A stretch of DNA of 64,000 nucleotides from Paracoccaceae bacterium (GTDB lineage: Bacteria > Pseudomonadota > Alphaproteobacteria > Rhodobacterales > Rhodobacteraceae), in the NCBI GenBank assembly GCA_021296235.1, contig JAGWAS010000006.1, forward strand, positions 22,075 through 86,074, in the 5' to 3' direction. Of this stretch, positions 29,935 to 54,134 are shown piece after piece. The position numbers and the translations under genes were made by a program. A model generated the notes under the pieces. It was not told where the DNA came from. It saw only the letters and a list, made by a program, of their open reading frames with translations, and ran no database searches. How positions within the stretch are numbered: position 1 is the stretch's first letter; each line of letters begins with the position of its first letter.

Positions 29935-31503
29935 TCACGCCACTTCCGAAACCTGATTGGGGGCTGTTTTGGAGCGCCGGTAGAGCAAATTGTTGAGGGC
30001 GTTCACATATGCTTTGGCCGAGGCTAGGATTGTGTCGGTGTCGTTGGACTGGCCCACCACGATTCGGCCGTTTTCCTCCAGCCTGACGCTGACTGTTGCC
30101 TGTGCGTCGGTTCCTTCGGTTACTGCCTGGACATGATACAACAGCAGTTTTGCATCATGTGCAAACACCTTGTTGACGGCATTGAATGCCGCATCGACCG
30201 GGCCGTCGCCCTCTGACTCGACCTTATGCGAGACACCATCGACCAGTATGGTCAGTTCAGCGGTCTGAGGTGCAATTGAACCGCAAACGACGCGCAGGTG
30301 CTCAACCTTAAGATGCTCATCCACCGCCTCATTGGCACTGGACTGCATCAAGGCAATCAGATCCTCGTCAAATATCTCCTTTTTTTTGTCGGAAAGCGCC
30401 TTGAACTGAACAAACACGTCGTTGAGGCGGTTTTCGCCGACATCATAACCCAACTCCTCAAGCTTCTTCCGGAGCGCTGCCCTCCCGGAGTGCTTGCCCA
30501 TGACAAGATTTGTCGAAGCAAGCCCGACATCCTCCGGCCGCATGATTTCGTAGGTGCCGGCATGCTTGATCATTCCGTCCTGATGGATTCCGGATTCATG
30601 GGCAAATGCGTTCTTTCCGACGATTGCCTTGTTGTATTGAACCGGAAAGCCGGTTGCGTCGGCCACGGACCTTGATGCCTGCATGATTCGCTTGGTGTCG
30701 ACACCGGTCGCATACGGCATGATGTCATTGCGAACCCGCATCGCCATCACGATTTCCTCAAGCGCGGCATTTCCGGCGCGCTCGCCGAGGCCGTTGATTG
30801 TGCACTCAACCTGACGGGCGCCGGCGATGACGGCTGCCAGGGAATTTGCAACGGCCATGCCGAGGTCGTCGTGGCAGTGTGTTGACAGGGTAACACTGTC
30901 GATTCCCGGTACGCGCTCGCGCAGCATCCTTATGATTTCAGCGCTCTCTGACGGTGCGGTGTAGCCCACCGTATCGGGGATGTTGATGGTGGTTGCACCG
31001 GAGCGCATCGCCGTCTCAACGGTCCGGCACAGAAAATCATGTTCGGTGCGGGTGCCGTCTTCAGGTGACCACTGCACATCGTCGGTATATTTTCGGGCGT
31101 ATTCGACCGAGCGGGCGATTGCATCGATGACATCCTCCGATTGCATCTTCAGTTTGAACTTCATGTGCAGTGGGGATGTCGAGATAAAGGTATGAATGCG
31201 CGGCCGTTTCGCATCCTTCAATGCGGCCCCGGCACGATCAATGTCGGAGAGGGAAGAACGGGCAAGTCCGCAGACCGAAGCATTCCTGGTGCAGCGCGAT
31301 ATTTCCTGAACGGCCCTGAAGTCACCTTCCGAGGCGATCGGGAATCCGGCCTCAATAATGTCGACTCCCATTTCGTCCAGCAGGTTTGCGATTTCAATCT
31401 TTTCGTCGAGCGTCATGGTTGCACCCGGCGATTGTTCGCCGTCGCGCAACGTGGTGTCAAATATCAGAACCCGGTCCTGATTGTCGCTAAAAGCGTTTTC
31501 CAT
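29935..31503 (-). CDS. leuA: 2-isopropylmalate synthase
   Basis: VLIFDTTLRDGEQSPGATM; STHCHDDLGMAVANS; INGLGERAGNAALEE. Confidence 0.96.
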   Translation of the reverse strand: MENAFSDNQDRVLIFDTTLRDGEQSPGATMTLDEKIEIANLLDEMGVDIIEAGFPIASEGDFRAVQEISRCTRNASVCGLARSSLSDIDRAGAALKDAKRPRIHTFISTSPLHMKFKLKMQSEDVIDAIARSVEYARKYTDDVQWSPEDGTRTEHDFLCRTVETAMRSGATTINIPDTVGYTAPSESAEIIRMLRERVPGIDSVTLSTHCHDDLGMAVANSLAAVIAGARQVECTINGLGERAGNAALEEIVMAMRVRNDIMPYATGVDTKRIMQASRSVADATGFPVQYNKAIVGKNAFAHESGIHQDGMIKHAGTYEIMRPEDVGLASTNLVMGKHSGRAALRKKLEELGYDVGENRLNDVFVQFKALSDKKKEIFDEDLIALMQSSANEAVDEHLKVEHLRVVCGSIAPQTAELTILVDGVSHKVESEGDGPVDAAFNAVNKVFAHDAKLLLYHVQAVTEGTDAQATVSVRLEENGRIVVGQSNDTDTILASAKAYVNALNNLLYRRSKTAPNQVSEVA

Positions 31504-31562
31504 GAGAGCATCCGATTTGGCTTTTTGGTTTGATCCAGTTTGCCGGTGCGTTCCATTTTCCC

Positions 31563-31601
31563 CTGAGCCGGCGCACCGTCGCCGTGACGCTCAGAGGCCG
31601 G
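31563..31601 (-). promoter_or_regulatory. putative attenuator-like alternative hairpins in leuA leader
   Basis: CTGAGC(31589-31594)/GCTCAG(31563-31568) plus GCCG/CGGC stem; exclusive alternative pairing of CCGGC(31597-31601) with GCCGG(31568-31572); no U run. Confidence 0.45.
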
Positions 31602-31671
31602 AAAGGAGAAGTGTCAGATTGCCCCGACCCGATTCCGAAAACTCATTGAATCTGGAATAAGCCATAATCAT
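31591..31671 (-). CDS. putative Leu-rich leader peptide of leuA (MIMAYSRFNEFSESGRGNLTLLLSGL)
   Basis: 26-codon ORF ending CTG ACA CTT CTC CTT TCC GGC CTC TGA immediately before alternative hairpins and leuA. Confidence 0.6.
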   Translation of the reverse strand: MIMAYSRFNEFSESGRGNLTLLLSGL

Positions 31672-31774
31672 TATGAAAATAGTTTAGCACAATGGTTTCG
31701 TCAAAAAAGGCCATTGGTGTTTTTTGACGGCAAACTCCGGTTGTCTGCCCAGAAGTGTTGCAAATTGGTCAGCA

Positions 31775-33256
31775 TCACTCTGTCGTGGGCGATCCACCAT
31801 CGCCGAGCAGTTGGCCTCGGTGGAACTCGACTTGGGAAACGTTGCCATTGGACTGGCGTGCAATTCCGTTTCCGTGTGGCAGGCCGTCAGCCCAATCACC
31901 TTCATAGCTGTATCCGTTCGGATACACAGCTTTGCCCTTGCCGGATCGGACCCCATTGGTGAACTGACCCTCGAACATTGTGCCGTCATTGTACCTTTCG
32001 ACACCGGTCCCGTGTTTTTTCCCTTCCATCCAGTCGCCTTCATAGCTGTATCCGTCAGGCCCGATGAATCGTCCGACACCGTGGAAGATGAAATCGCGAA
32101 GTTCGCCCGAATACGTTGATCCGTCGGGGAACCAGATCTCGCTCTGCCCTTCAATCCGTCCATTTGACCAATTGCCCCGATAAACAGCACCATCGCTCGT
32201 GGTCAATGCGCCGGCGCCATGAGGTGCCGTTCCCGAAATCCGCCCCGAATAGACATCCCCATCGGCATAGGTGATTGTTCCCTGGCCGTCCAGAACTCCA
32301 AGATTCCAATCGCCTTCAACGATCGTGCCGCCGGATGAGGTGTATCGTCCGGCACCGTGGCGCTTCCCGAACTCGAAACCGCCTTCATGGACATCTCCGT
32401 TCGCATAGGTCAACCTCCCGCTGCCGTGGGTTTTGCCGTCCAACCATTCACCCTCGTAGATTGGGCCATCGACCGCCTCAAGTGCGCCGTGCCCGTGCGG
32501 AACTCCATTCTTGACCCCACCGCGAAAGACAGAACCGCCGGCAAGTTTGATTGTGGCATTTCCGTGCAGTTCACCTGCGACCCACTCGCCTACGATGATG
32601 GTTCCGTCCGGCAACGTTTGACTTCCCTTTCCATGTCGCTGCCCATTTTGAAACATGCCGGAATGAACGGTTCCGTCAGGAGCGGTCAGCGAGCCGGCGC
32701 CATGCGCTGCGCCATTTGCAAATTGCCCCCGGTAAACAGTGCCGTCCGGCAATACCTCCGCACCTGCCCCGTTCAGGAGGCCACTCGACCAGTTTCCCTC
32801 CTGCCGGCGGCCATCGGGGTGAACGAACACGCCGCTGCCATTCCTCTCGCCATCGTCGAACTGGCCAGTATAGACGGAGCCATCCACGAAGCTGTACGAC
32901 CCAAGGCCACTGATGCGGTCCTCTTGCCATTGCCCTTCGTAAATCTCGCCGTTCTCAAATGTCATCGTGCCGATGCCGTGTTTCAGGCCCGAATCGAATT
33001 GGCCCGAATACACCGATCCGTCCGGATACTTCACCAAAGCTTCGCCGTGCTGTTTGCCGGACCTCCAGCCTCCATCGTAGACATAGCCGTTGCGGAGACG
33101 CAGCAGCCCATTGCCGTGGCGTTGGCCGTCCCGCAAATCCCCGGAGTAGGTTGTTCCGTTCTGCTTGACGGCGTTTTCGCCGGAATGCGCACTCATGCCC
33201 GCCAATGTGAGGAGAATGGCCGGAATGGTGGCGGCGATAAAGACCTTGGTGGACAT
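31775..33256 (-). CDS. secreted MORN-repeat protein (20 tandem 23-aa repeats)
   Basis: Signal-peptide-like MSTKVFIAATIPAILLTLAGMSAHS then uninterrupted DGxxYxGxWxxGxxHGxGxxxxx repeats; ORF opens at 33454 but this extension overlaps nadE. Confidence 0.88.
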   Translation of the reverse strand: MSTKVFIAATIPAILLTLAGMSAHSGENAVKQNGTTYSGDLRDGQRHGNGLLRLRNGYVYDGGWRSGKQHGEALVKYPDGSVYSGQFDSGLKHGIGTMTFENGEIYEGQWQEDRISGLGSYSFVDGSVYTGQFDDGERNGSGVFVHPDGRRQEGNWSSGLLNGAGAEVLPDGTVYRGQFANGAAHGAGSLTAPDGTVHSGMFQNGQRHGKGSQTLPDGTIIVGEWVAGELHGNATIKLAGGSVFRGGVKNGVPHGHGALEAVDGPIYEGEWLDGKTHGSGRLTYANGDVHEGGFEFGKRHGAGRYTSSGGTIVEGDWNLGVLDGQGTITYADGDVYSGRISGTAPHGAGALTTSDGAVYRGNWSNGRIEGQSEIWFPDGSTYSGELRDFIFHGVGRFIGPDGYSYEGDWMEGKKHGTGVERYNDGTMFEGQFTNGVRSGKGKAVYPNGYSYEGDWADGLPHGNGIARQSNGNVSQVEFHRGQLLGDGGSPTTE

Positions 33257-33335
33257 CAGGTTTCTGTTCCTTGCCGAAAGCGCGCCATGTATAAGCAAAT
33301 AGGTTCGCCGTGTCTGCAAAAGTTGAAGAAGCCCC

Positions 33336-35009
33336 GTGTCTGAGATCTTTCGGCTCATCCTTGCCCAAGAAAATGCGACGGTCGGTGATCTGACCGGAAA
33401 TGCCGCCAAGGTCATTCGTCTCCACCGGGACCCGGTTTGCCGAACAGCAGACATGTTGGCTTTCCCGGAAATGTTCCTTTCCGGCTATCCAGTTCAGGAC
33501 CTTGTTCTTAAACGGGCTTTTGTCGAAGGCTGCCGCAACGCGCTGAACCAAGTGATGGATGCCTGTGCCGATGGCCCTGCGGTCGGGGTTGGTGCGCCCT
33601 GCATTGTGGATGGCAAGCTCCACAACGCCTATTTTGTTCTTCACCAGGGGCAGGTTGCCGCCAGGATCCTGAAGCATTGCCTCCCCAACAGCGAAGTGTT
33701 TGACGAGAAAAGGCAGTTTTCGGCGGGACCGATCTGCGGACCCTTTCGGATCGGACCGGTTCGAATCGGAACCCCGATCTGCGAAGACGCATGGAGTCCG
33801 GACGTTGCGGAAACGTTGGCTGAATCGGGCGCACAGATAATCATCGTTCCCAACGGCTCGCCGTACCATCGAGGCAAGATGGACATCCGGTTTTCGCACA
33901 TGGTGGCGCGGGTCGTGGAAACCGGATTGCCGCTGGCATACCTCAATCTTGTTGGTGGTCAGGATGACCTGATTTTCGATGGCGGGTCTTTCGTTCTTAA
34001 CCCCGGCGGAGCCTTGGCATTGCAGATGCCGCCATTTGACAGAACCGTGCAGCTTGTCGAATTCAAAAGCGGCAGCGATGGCTGGACGGCTGTTCCAGGC
34101 TCATGTGCAAAACATGGGGATGAGTGGGAGAGCGATTATCGGGCGATGGTCGAGTCGATTCGGGACTATGCGGCAAAGAGCGGGTTTTCCTCGGCGCTGA
34201 TTGGTCTTTCGGGTGGAGTCGACAGCGCATTGGTTGCAACCATCGCCGTCGATGCCATCGGCCCCGGCAATGTCCGCTGTGTCATGTTGCCATCAGGTTT
34301 CACATCGCGCGAATCGTTGGAGGACGCAGGCGAAGCGGCGGATCTTCTCGGTTGCCGGTTGGATCGGATTGGGATCGGCGATCTTCAGGGCATGGCGGAG
34401 AGGACATTGGCCCCATTGTTTGAGGGACACGAACGCGGAACCGCGGAGGAGAACATCCAATCGCGCCTTCGGGGATTGCTGCTCATGGCGATTTCCAACA
34501 AGTTCGGAGAATTGCTGCTGACGACCGGGAACAAGTCGGAAGCTGCGGTTGGATATGCCACGATTTATGGCGACATGGCCGGGGGGTACAACCCGATAAA
34601 GGACCTGTACAAGACGAGGGTGTTTGCGACCTGCAGGTGGCGAAATGAAAATCACCGGAACTGGATGCATGGTCCGCTTGGCAAGTGCGTGCCGGACCGC
34701 ATTCTGACGAAGCCGCCTTCAGCGGAACTCAGGCCTGATCAAAAGGATATTGACAGTCTGCCGCCCTATGAATCCCTTGACGGCATTCTTGAACAATTGA
34801 TCGACAATGACCTTTCGGTTGATGAGGTGGTTTCGAATGGATTTGACCCGGAGACGGTAACGCAGGTGGAACAGCTGATCTATGCTTCCGAACACAAGAG
34901 GTTTCAGTCTGCACCGGGGGTTCGGCTGACCGGACGTGCACTTTGGCTTGACCGCCGCTATCCAATCGTAAATCACTGGCGGGATACCGCCGGGCAGAAA
35001 AAGGGGTGA
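33336..35009 (+). CDS. nadE: glutamine-dependent NAD+ synthetase
   Basis: Nitrilase-type domain (GTPICEDAWSP) plus LIGLSGGVDSALVATI and LLTTGNKSEAAVGYATIYGDMAGGYNPIKDLYKT. Confidence 0.94.
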   Translation: MSEIFRLILAQENATVGDLTGNAAKVIRLHRDPVCRTADMLAFPEMFLSGYPVQDLVLKRAFVEGCRNALNQVMDACADGPAVGVGAPCIVDGKLHNAYFVLHQGQVAARILKHCLPNSEVFDEKRQFSAGPICGPFRIGPVRIGTPICEDAWSPDVAETLAESGAQIIIVPNGSPYHRGKMDIRFSHMVARVVETGLPLAYLNLVGGQDDLIFDGGSFVLNPGGALALQMPPFDRTVQLVEFKSGSDGWTAVPGSCAKHGDEWESDYRAMVESIRDYAAKSGFSSALIGLSGGVDSALVATIAVDAIGPGNVRCVMLPSGFTSRESLEDAGEAADLLGCRLDRIGIGDLQGMAERTLAPLFEGHERGTAEENIQSRLRGLLLMAISNKFGELLLTTGNKSEAAVGYATIYGDMAGGYNPIKDLYKTRVFATCRWRNENHRNWMHGPLGKCVPDRILTKPPSAELRPDQKDIDSLPPYESLDGILEQLIDNDLSVDEVVSNGFDPETVTQVEQLIYASEHKRFQSAPGVRLTGRALWLDRRYPIVNHWRDTAGQKKG

Positions 35010-51079: not shown

Positions 51080-52519
51080 ATGGCACAATTGCGATTTCAC
51101 AACACGAAAACCGGACAGAAGGAGGAGTTCGAGCCGATTGAGCCGGGCAGGGTGCGAATGTATGCTTGCGGACCCACGGTCTATGATCGGGCCCATATCG
51201 GAAATGCCCGTCAGGCGGTTGTGTTCGATGTCCTTTTCCGGCTTCTCCGGAACCTTTATGGCGAAGGCGTCCTTTATGTCCGCAACATTACGGACGTTGA
51301 TGACAAGATCAATGCGCGCGCCCTTGAGTTGTGGAATTCGGATGGGGCGCAATCCTTGGCGGACGTCGTGCGCGTCATCACCAATGAGACAATCGAGTGG
51401 TACAGAGAGGATATGGGTGCCCTCTCGGTGCTGACGCCCGATTTGGAACCGCGAGCCACCGAATTCATTCCCGAGATGATTGAGTTGATATTGCGGCTGC
51501 TCGAGGGTGGATTTGCATATGTCGCCGAAGGTCACGTTCTGTTCAGTGTTGATGCATATTCAGCCTACGGTGATTTTTCACGCAGATCGCCTGAGGACAT
51601 GGAAGCTGGCGCGAGAGTCGAAATTGCCCCCTACAAGAGAAATCCGGTCGATTTTGTCCTCTGGAAGCCGTCGGACTCAAATGAGCCTGGCTGGGACTCG
51701 CCTTGGGGACGGGGACGGCCGGGATGGCACATCGAATGCTCGGCAATGAGCCTGAAGCTGCTCGGAAACAACTTCGACATTCATGCCGGCGGCGCCGACC
51801 TGATCTTTCCGCATCATGAGAATGAAATTGCACAGAGCATCTGCGCCAATCCAGGTTCTGAATTCGCAAGGTATTGGATGCACAACGGTTTGTTGACCGT
51901 GAATGGCAGAAAGATGTCCAAGAGCCTGGGCAATGTCATCACAATCAAGGATTTGACAAACAAGGGCATAAGCGGCGGGGCAATTCGGCTCACCCTTCTG
52001 TCGACCCACTACAGGCAATCGCTGGACTGGACCGAAACGAAGCTTGAGGAAAACACCCGGGCGATGGAGCGTTGGGCCGGGATGATGGAGGATGCTCCGA
52101 ACTGCACCGGAGCCGTTTCGCCTGAGATTGTTGCGGCACTTTCGGATGATCTCAACACACCCAAGGCAATTGCCGAGCTACACCGGCTTGCCAAGGAGGG
52201 CGATTTTGGTTCGCTGAAGGCATCGGTTGAATTGCTTGGCCTATTGACTGGCGAAAGCGGGACCGGCCGGGTTCAGGTTGAAGACGGCATGCAGAATTTG
52301 ATTGAGCGGCTGCTGCAGGAGCGGGCCGGAGCCAGAGGGCGTCGGCATTTTGATGAGGCCGACAGAATCCGCGACCTCCTTTTGTCGGCAGGCGTTGAAA
52401 TCAAGGACGGCCCGCAGGGAACAGAATGGAGTGCGACATCACGATTCAATCCGGACCGGCTGGAACAGGGTAATCCGGGAGATTCCGCAATTGTGGGAGG
52501 TTTTGCAGATGACGGCTGA
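51080..52519 (+). CDS. cysS: cysteine--tRNA ligase
   Basis: [41 protein letters not shown]. Confidence 0.96.
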
Positions 52520-54134
52520 ACGGCTGACGCTCTACGACACGACACTGCGGGATGGCCAACAGACGCAGGGAGTTCAGTTTTCGCCCGACGAAAAACTGAA
52601 GGTGGCCGCGGCTCTTGATGAATTGGGCCTTGACTACATTGAAGCAGGTTGGCCCGGTGCCAACCCAACCGACAGCGAGTTCTTTGCCCGCATGCCGCAG
52701 ACATCTCATTCCAGGATCACCGCATTCGGAATGACAAAGAGAACCGGCCGCTCAGCTTCCAACGATGAATTGTTGGCTGAAGTGATGAACGCCGGCACCC
52801 GGTCGGTGTGCCTCGTCGGCAAATCCCATGATTTCCATGTCACAAACGCTCTGCGGGTGTCACTTGCGGAAAATCTCGAGAACATTGCGCTGTCGGTCAA
52901 GCATTTGGTCGAGAACGGATTTGAGGCACTCTTCGACGCCGAACATTTCTTTGACGGATATCGTTCCAACAGAGGTTATGCGCTTGAATGTGTCATCGCT
53001 GCTTTCGAAGCGGGCGCAAGGTGGATTGTGCTTTGCGACACCAATGGCGGTACCCTGCCACCTGTCGTGGGGGATGTAACCGCAGATGTAATCGATGCCG
53101 GAATCCCCGGAGAAAGGGTTGGCATCCACACGCATGATGATACCGGAACCGCTGTTGCCGGAGCACTGGCAGCTGTCGATTCCGGGGCACGGCAGATCCA
53201 GGGAACGCTAAACGGGTTGGGCGAGAGATGCGGCAATGCAAATTTTATGACGATCATTCCAACGCTGCTGCTGAAGGAACCCTACAAATCAAAATATGTC
53301 ACAAATGTTTCCGCATGCGGATTGTCAAAACTGACCAGGGTTTCGCGTCTGCTTGATGACATCCTAAACCGCGTGCCGGACAAATCAGCCCCATATGTGG
53401 GATCCTCCGCCTTTGTGCACAAGGCTGGGCTGCATGCCTCCGCGGTCGCCAGGGATCCAAGCACCTATGAGCATGTCGATCCTGGCGAAGTCGGAAACCA
53501 AAGGGTCATTCCAATGTCCAACCAGGCAGGCAAGTCCAACCTGGTTGCCCGACTGGATGAGGCGGGCATCGCCGTCAGCAGGGGAGATAGCCGCCTTTCC
53601 CAAATCATCGAAGTGGTGAAGCGACGTGAGAGCAAAGGCTACAGCTACGACACTGCCCAAGCCTCCTTTGAATTGCTGGCGCGCAGGATTCTGGGGAAGA
53701 TGCCAAAATACTTTTCGGTTGAGGCATTCAAGGTAACGGTGGAGCGGACGATGCAGGAGGATGTTGGATCCAGCACAAATTCGTTGGGAGAAGCTGTCAT
53801 CGACATTGCGGGGGAGAGGAGGAAGTCGGTTTCCGACGGCACAGATGGCAGGGAGGTTGACAATGGACCGGTGCATGCATTGGCAAGGGCGGTTCATAAG
53901 GATTTGGGCTGCTATCAGTCATATATTGACGACATGCGCCTGGTGGACTTCAAGGTGCGGATTACGAGCGGAGGCACTGAGGCGGTAACCCGGGTGATCA
54001 TCGACAGTGAAGACAGAAACGGAAAGCGCTGGTCGACCGTTGGGGTTTCGCCCAATATCATCAACGCCTCATTGGAAGCGCTTGTCGATGCCATCAACTG
54101 GAAACTTATCAGGGATCGGGCTCCCCCCCCATGA
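52509..54134 (+). CDS. cimA: (R)-citramalate synthase
   Basis: LTLYDTTLRDGQQTQGVQFS; EAGWPGANPTD; LCDTNGGTLP; overlaps cysS end. Confidence 0.92.
   Translation: MTAERLTLYDTTLRDGQQTQGVQFSPDEKLKVAAALDELGLDYIEAGWPGANPTDSEFFARMPQTSHSRITAFGMTKRTGRSASNDELLAEVMNAGTRSVCLVGKSHDFHVTNALRVSLAENLENIALSVKHLVENGFEALFDAEHFFDGYRSNRGYALECVIAAFEAGARWIVLCDTNGGTLPPVVGDVTADVIDAGIPGERVGIHTHDDTGTAVAGALAAVDSGARQIQGTLNGLGERCGNANFMTIIPTLLLKEPYKSKYVTNVSACGLSKLTRVSRLLDDILNRVPDKSAPYVGSSAFVHKAGLHASAVARDPSTYEHVDPGEVGNQRVIPMSNQAGKSNLVARLDEAGIAVSRGDSRLSQIIEVVKRRESKGYSYDTAQASFELLARRILGKMPKYFSVEAFKVTVERTMQEDVGSSTNSLGEAVIDIAGERRKSVSDGTDGREVDNGPVHALARAVHKDLGCYQSYIDDMRLVDFKVRITSGGTEAVTRVIIDSEDRNGKRWSTVGVSPNIINASLEALVDAINWKLIRDRAPPP

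Follow-up and report, generated by a model that had tools for sequence, protein, structure and literature searches.

In enterobacteria, the leu operon is controlled by an attenuator (Rfam Leu_leader) in which a leader peptide with Leu codons precedes leuA and transcription ends by intrinsic termination. In Actinobacteria, leuA is preceded by the LEU element, which also has a Leu leader peptide; its Leu codons form a helix with the Shine-Dalgarno sequence, a pseudoknot is conserved as well, and its mechanism was left open (Seliverstov et al. 2005, PMC1262725). The trpL attenuator of Sinorhizobium meliloti (rnTrpL/peTrpL) begins with a leaderless ORF and is a transcription attenuator that yields an sRNA (PMC10117765). 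In Rhodobacterales, the uORFC-8-2 motif before cysS consists of a short ORF with Cys codons, conserved stems and a terminal U run (Brewer et al. 2021, PMC8632094), and the main text of that paper has no mention of leuA. We found no paper on an alphaproteobacterial leuA leader; older surveys (Vitreschak 2004; Lopatovskaya 2010) may list one, and parts of it have possibly been noted before.

We analysed a 64,000-nt stretch of DNA (the window) from a Paracoccaceae bacterium in which leuA, on the minus strand, is preceded by such a leader. By design, it appears closest to the actinobacterial LEU element: both stand before leuA, have a leader peptide with a run of Leu codons and no obvious terminator, contain a conserved pseudoknot (here by covariation within the family) and let the Leu codons pair with sequence ahead of leuA (here in many relatives). 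The likeness is one of design, between elements of different phyla. Moreover, the Leu codons of the LEU element pair with the leuA Shine-Dalgarno sequence itself, whereas here the pairing strand lies mostly 7 to 23 nt, and typically about 20 nt, upstream of the AUG and the window copy has no visible Leu-codon helix; a hairpin (P2) here also encloses the stop codon of the leader ORF, which is very probably leaderless or nearly so in the family. With S. meliloti trpL it shares being an alphaproteobacterial amino-acid leader peptide from a leaderless ORF. The earlier note on this DNA had drawn that parallel, which holds for the leaderless ORF (from promoter spacing in the own family) but not for the rest, since there is no terminator-like U run here and trpL yields an sRNA. 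The enterobacterial attenuator likewise has a Leu-codon leader peptide before leuA, but here there was no Rfam match and no terminator-like U run. With uORFC-8-2 the leader has in common the order, a short ORF with cognate amino-acid codons and conserved stems, while the terminal U run and the Cys codons belong to uORFC-8-2. The Rfam search gave no match in the window at the gathering threshold and none in nine relatives at E ≤ 1, and Leu_leader in particular matched neither.

The leuA gene (positions 29935 to 31503, minus strand, 522 aa) encodes a genuine 2-isopropylmalate synthase, with 703 bits to NCBIfam TIGR00973, over the cut-off, and the Pfam domains HMGL-like, HCS_D2 and LeuA_dimer. 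We infer that it is the gene under control of the leader element. It is followed in the window by mreB and probably also mreC. Directly upstream of the leader, on the same strand, lies a gene for a large MORN-repeat protein (31775-33454; nine stretches passing the Pfam MORN cut-off), whose stop is about 100 nt before the leader ATG. The window also has a second LeuA-family protein on the plus strand (52515-54119), with HMGL-like, HCS_D2 and LeuA_dimer domains and 218 bits to TIGR00973, below the cut-off, which is possibly a citramalate synthase; the leader model found no match before this gene.

The leader ORF occupies positions 31591 to 31671 of the minus strand and encodes 26 aa (MIMAYSRFNEFSESGRGNLTLLLSGL) followed by TGA (31593-31591). 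The earlier note had read this 26-codon ORF from the ATG at 31671 and called it Leu-rich, and direct reading gave the same ORF, with Leu at five of the final eight residues. The putative control codons (31603-31617) are CTG at 31617, CTT at 31611, CTC at 31608 and CTT at 31605, and a further Leu codon, CTC at 31596, stands next to the stop. For comparison, leuA loci were sampled from the window's own genus, its own family and the whole class. Of 204 leuA upstream regions, 172 had a short Leu-rich ORF with its stop inside a hairpin; the earlier note had made its reading of a Leu leader peptide depend on a small ORF and Leu codons in relatives, and within the same family 102 of 110 upstream regions had the leader, with ORF position and Leu codons conserved. 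Leader and P2 were also present in most other alphaproteobacterial leuA upstream regions. Because the whole arrangement recurs in relatives, it is confirmed as real and conserved, far beyond chance. Some of the regions counted as lacking the leader had an imperfect copy (L009, L029) or lay at the end of a contig. In five loci of the same family (L024, L128, L139, L196 and L244), inspection by eye placed leuA directly behind a cupin-like gene without a leader of its own; these are possibly second leuA copies or a lineage in which the control was lost. When the more distant loci L056-L110 were searched for this layout, a good fit was found only in the alphaproteobacterial Devosia (L082) and Pseudorhodoplanes (L094).

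The Leu codons are conserved by position (-21, -18, -15 and -12). Leu stood at codon position -12 in 101 of 101 members of the same family and 67 of 68 other Alphaproteobacteria, and at -18 in 93/101 and 63/68, respectively. Within the Leu run of the same family, the rare codons CTT and CTA made up 59% of the Leu codons, compared with 9% in the leuA ORFs, although at -12 the pairing in helix P1 (below) would partly demand the same bias. The consensus leader end was G-L-L-L-L-S-R-L-stop in the same family and L-R/L-L-x-x-P-stop in the more distant alphaproteobacterial groups. In distant members such as L032, L034, L048 and L203, the leader closes with L-R-L-x-x-P-stop, and CTT CGA CTT is a frequent codon string there. 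With just two Leu codons fixed in these distant leaders, sensing may rest on few codons or also on the Arg codon.

A covariance model of the leader end and P2 recognized the window's own copy with E = 8.9e-8. Because strict filters were used for the large sets, the following match counts are lower bounds: at least 123 of 387 alphaproteobacterial genomes had a match, nearly all in single copy, and of 299 genomes sampled across the phylum at least 69 matched, every one of them of the class Alphaproteobacteria, with 0 matches outside it. Three genomes gave two matches each, and in two of these both were the same place on the two strands. In every genome compared by eye, leuA lay on the strand of the match and no further than about 250 nt downstream of it. 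Matches also occurred in G048 (C1:209889-209948) and other f13 genomes, and at least in G048 the gene behind the element belongs to another, only weakly similar type within the LeuA family, an indication that the element is tied to the function.

For the promoter, by-eye alignment with relatives gave the consensus CTTTTC-17-TATAGT-7/8-ATG, and the probable promoter of the leader transcript in the window is CTTTTT (31709-31704), 17 nt, TAAACT (31686-31681), minus strand. The earlier note had proposed TTGACG (31704-31699), 17 nt, TATTTT (31681-31676); a simple scan finds this pair at 31704-31676, but the relatives make the overlapping CTTTTT-17-TAAACT the better reading. The TAAACT ends 9 nt before the leader ATG and predicts a start 1 to 2 nt before the ATG at 31671, whereas the previously proposed pair would put the start inside the ATG. 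A -10-like hexamer ended 6 to 9 nt before an in-frame leader ATG in 92% of the family, compared with 11% for any ATG in shuffled sequence, and the spacing was 7 or 8 nt in 85 of the 95 clear family cases. SD-like sequences preceded the leader ATG in just 3/101 family members and the leuA AUG in 44/101. Both the (near-)leaderless ORF and the lack of a Shine-Dalgarno sequence that the earlier note had described thus agree with the family, and the spacing in relatives predicts a start at the ATG, not downstream of 31671. Because of the -10 spacing and the rarity of SD-like sequences, the leader is very likely translated leaderless or nearly so in the window's family; the leaderless -10 spacing was not seen in the other Alphaproteobacteria.

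The leader stop codon lies in the 5' arm of P2 (CCTCTGAGC, 31589-31597), which pairs with the 3' arm GCTCAGGGG (31560-31568). A stop-codon stem had been given before as CTGAGC/GCTCAG; it is present with the stop inside, but its actual length is 9 bp, longer than described. Aligned across 77 alphaproteobacterial sequences, this stem proved to be conserved with compensatory changes: 96.4% of the P2 cells were paired, both sides had changed in 7 of 10 pairs, and there were 55 double-change cells compared with 15.7 ± 3.0 in shuffles. The stop codon was inside P2 throughout the set, a CUUA was nearly invariant in sequence, and the loop was variable, its sequence poorly conserved across the class. 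The plain minimum-energy fold of the window leader recovered P2, but its stability was not above that of shuffles (z = -0.89). A generic MAFFT alignment of the whole leader with column covariation misaligned beyond P2, and many of its top pairs were artefacts; therefore, motif-anchored and swapped-strand tests were used for the remaining pairings.

Members of the same family carry GG[C/T]GC towards the 3' end of the P2 loop, and this motif can pair with GC[G/A]CC located 3 to 13 nt downstream of P2. In the window, the two strands are CGGTGCG (31572-31578) and CGCACCG (31544-31550), both on the minus strand. Motif-anchored covariation in the 92 relatives with both motifs gave a middle pair of C:G in 78, T:A in 7, T:G in 7 and C with A in 0 (Fisher p = 4e-7), and the next pair outwards, which was unused in motif choice, was Watson-Crick in 63/92 compared with 31 ± 4 in shuffles; because these shuffles preserve how closely the species are related, the p-values should be taken as guides. 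The downstream motif occurred in 94% of the sequences and in 17% of shuffled ones. The window carries the T:A version, a double change giving GGTGC/GCACC, and its genus-mate L007 has TTTGGTGC/GCACCAAA. The covariation is clear, and in the same family the P2 loop is predicted to form a pseudoknot with the strand just downstream; in the other Alphaproteobacteria the pairing was not significant (p = 0.43).

A compact pseudoknot with a nearly invariant CUUA would also suit a binding site for a protein or a small ligand, with the Leu codons secondary, as has been proposed for the actinobacterial LEU element (PMC1262725). We regard such binding as rather improbable, since Leu is strongly selected at fixed positions with rare synonymous codons and the P2 loops, unlike a ligand pocket, are poorly conserved across the class.

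The earlier note had instead proposed an alternative fold, CCGGC with GCCGG, excluding the stop-codon stem as in amino-acid attenuators. The 5-bp complementarity exists in the window (31601-31597 with 31572-31568) but is not conserved in relatives: own strands scored 11.74 and species-swapped strands 11.75 (p = 0.34, 101 relatives), and the pairing is most likely incidental. The conserved second and third pairings are the loop-to-downstream pseudoknot and, in many relatives, P1. That note had also observed that no U run follows the hairpin and had doubted classical intrinsic termination. Indeed, the window has no U run from P2 to leuA, UUUU occurred within 12 nt after P2 in 0/101 family members and anywhere before the leuA AUG in only 3/101, and the doubt is well founded. 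Because no U run follows P2, intrinsic termination at the leuA leader is unlikely, and classical attenuation as a whole, for which a leader peptide, control codons and hairpins are at hand, is hardly credible with these U-run counts and with the competing fold not conserved.

The third pairing, P1, would join the Leu codons and the Ser and Arg codons that follow (UCCUUAGCC) to the strand GGCUAAGGA, some 20 nt ahead of the AUG of leuA. In the same family, own strands paired better than species-swapped strands in two tests (p = 1.9e-7 and 2.3e-8), and duplex energies gave the same result (p = 2.0e-9). Own strands were also better in the other Alphaproteobacteria (p about 1e-5 to 5e-3), and a control that set the loop against that downstream region showed no difference (p = 0.87). 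Compensated forms include CTAAGCTG/CAGCTTAG, CTACTAAGC/GCTTAGTAG, TCTTGGCT/AGCCAAGA and CTGATCCTAAT/ATTAGGATCAG. The 3' strand mostly ends 16 to 23 nt before the leuA AUG, which is too far for it to be the Shine-Dalgarno sequence itself, and in a minority 7 to 9 nt before it. A strong P1 score was obtained for only about 39% of the same family. In the window copy, there was no P1 above chance (own duplex -5.9 kcal/mol, swapped -8.1 kcal/mol), and in the genus-mate L007 it was not detectable. On this comparison P1 belongs to the family and cannot be claimed for the window copy, because the window strands pair no better than chance, and the last regulatory step there may differ.

The occurrence of the stop codon inside P2 throughout the set could also be read to mean that the hairpin and pseudoknot act mainly on mRNA stability or on how the leader ribosome is released or rescued, with leuA affected indirectly. 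We consider this highly improbable, since it leaves unexplained the covariation of the Leu codons with the leuA-proximal strand in P1.

The reading that we prefer, at a probability of roughly 60%, is a cis-acting Leu-sensing leader in which a Leu-starved ribosome would stall on the Leu codons and let leuA be expressed, probably at the level of translation initiation. With enough Leu, the ribosome would finish the leader and leave, and P1, P2 and the pseudoknot would fold beside the leuA start region, with P1 closing the element, so that leuA initiation would be held down. When Leu-tRNA is short, the ribosome would stall on the Leu codons, which are part of the P1 5' strand just before P2; P1 could then not form, the leuA region would be open and leuA would be expressed. 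P2, the pseudoknot and P1 are mutually compatible, and the switch would be ribosome-driven. The spacing is consistent with the leuA-proximal strand being freed when Leu is short: the Leu run extends from -21 to -12, the P1 5' strand from about -14 to -6 and P2 from -4, and a ribosome, which covers about 12 nt beyond the codon being translated (value cited in PMC4833913), would when waiting at -21 or -18 cover most of the P1 5' strand and not P2. Experiments cited in the paper on the similar actinobacterial element (PMC1262725) found leader-codon mutations to behave unlike classical attenuation, which counts against this reading, as do the P1 results for the window copy, for L007 and for the weaker-scoring part of the family, and the unremarkable stability of the plain window fold.

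With no U run, leuA would more likely be controlled at translation initiation, or secondly through Rho, than by intrinsic termination. A Leu-sensing leader might thus work by Rho-dependent (factor-dependent) termination, in which leader translation or stalling decides the access of Rho to RNA polymerase before leuA. A leader ORF with control codons and no U run would suit this, and the actinobacterial paper raises Rho for terminator-less leaders (PMC1262725), but Rho by itself needs neither a conserved pseudoknot nor a helix reaching the leuA start region, and we therefore think it unlikely, though worth keeping in mind.

We give even odds to the broader proposal that this is an undescribed RNA family, widespread in Alphaproteobacteria, in which a Leu leader ORF has its stop codon in a pseudoknotted element controlling leuA translation without a terminator, much like in Actinobacteria. 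Such an element, which Rfam lacks, would control the committed step of leucine biosynthesis in a class that is both large and important ecologically, and its pairings are precise and testable. It also bears on the old puzzle of the actinobacterial LEU element, whose leader peptide and pseudoknot before leuA were recognized without the mechanism becoming clear: that question could be tested in this other lineage, where the design is similar, the leader ORF very probably leaderless and the genetics easy (Rhodobacter, Phaeobacter, Paracoccus).
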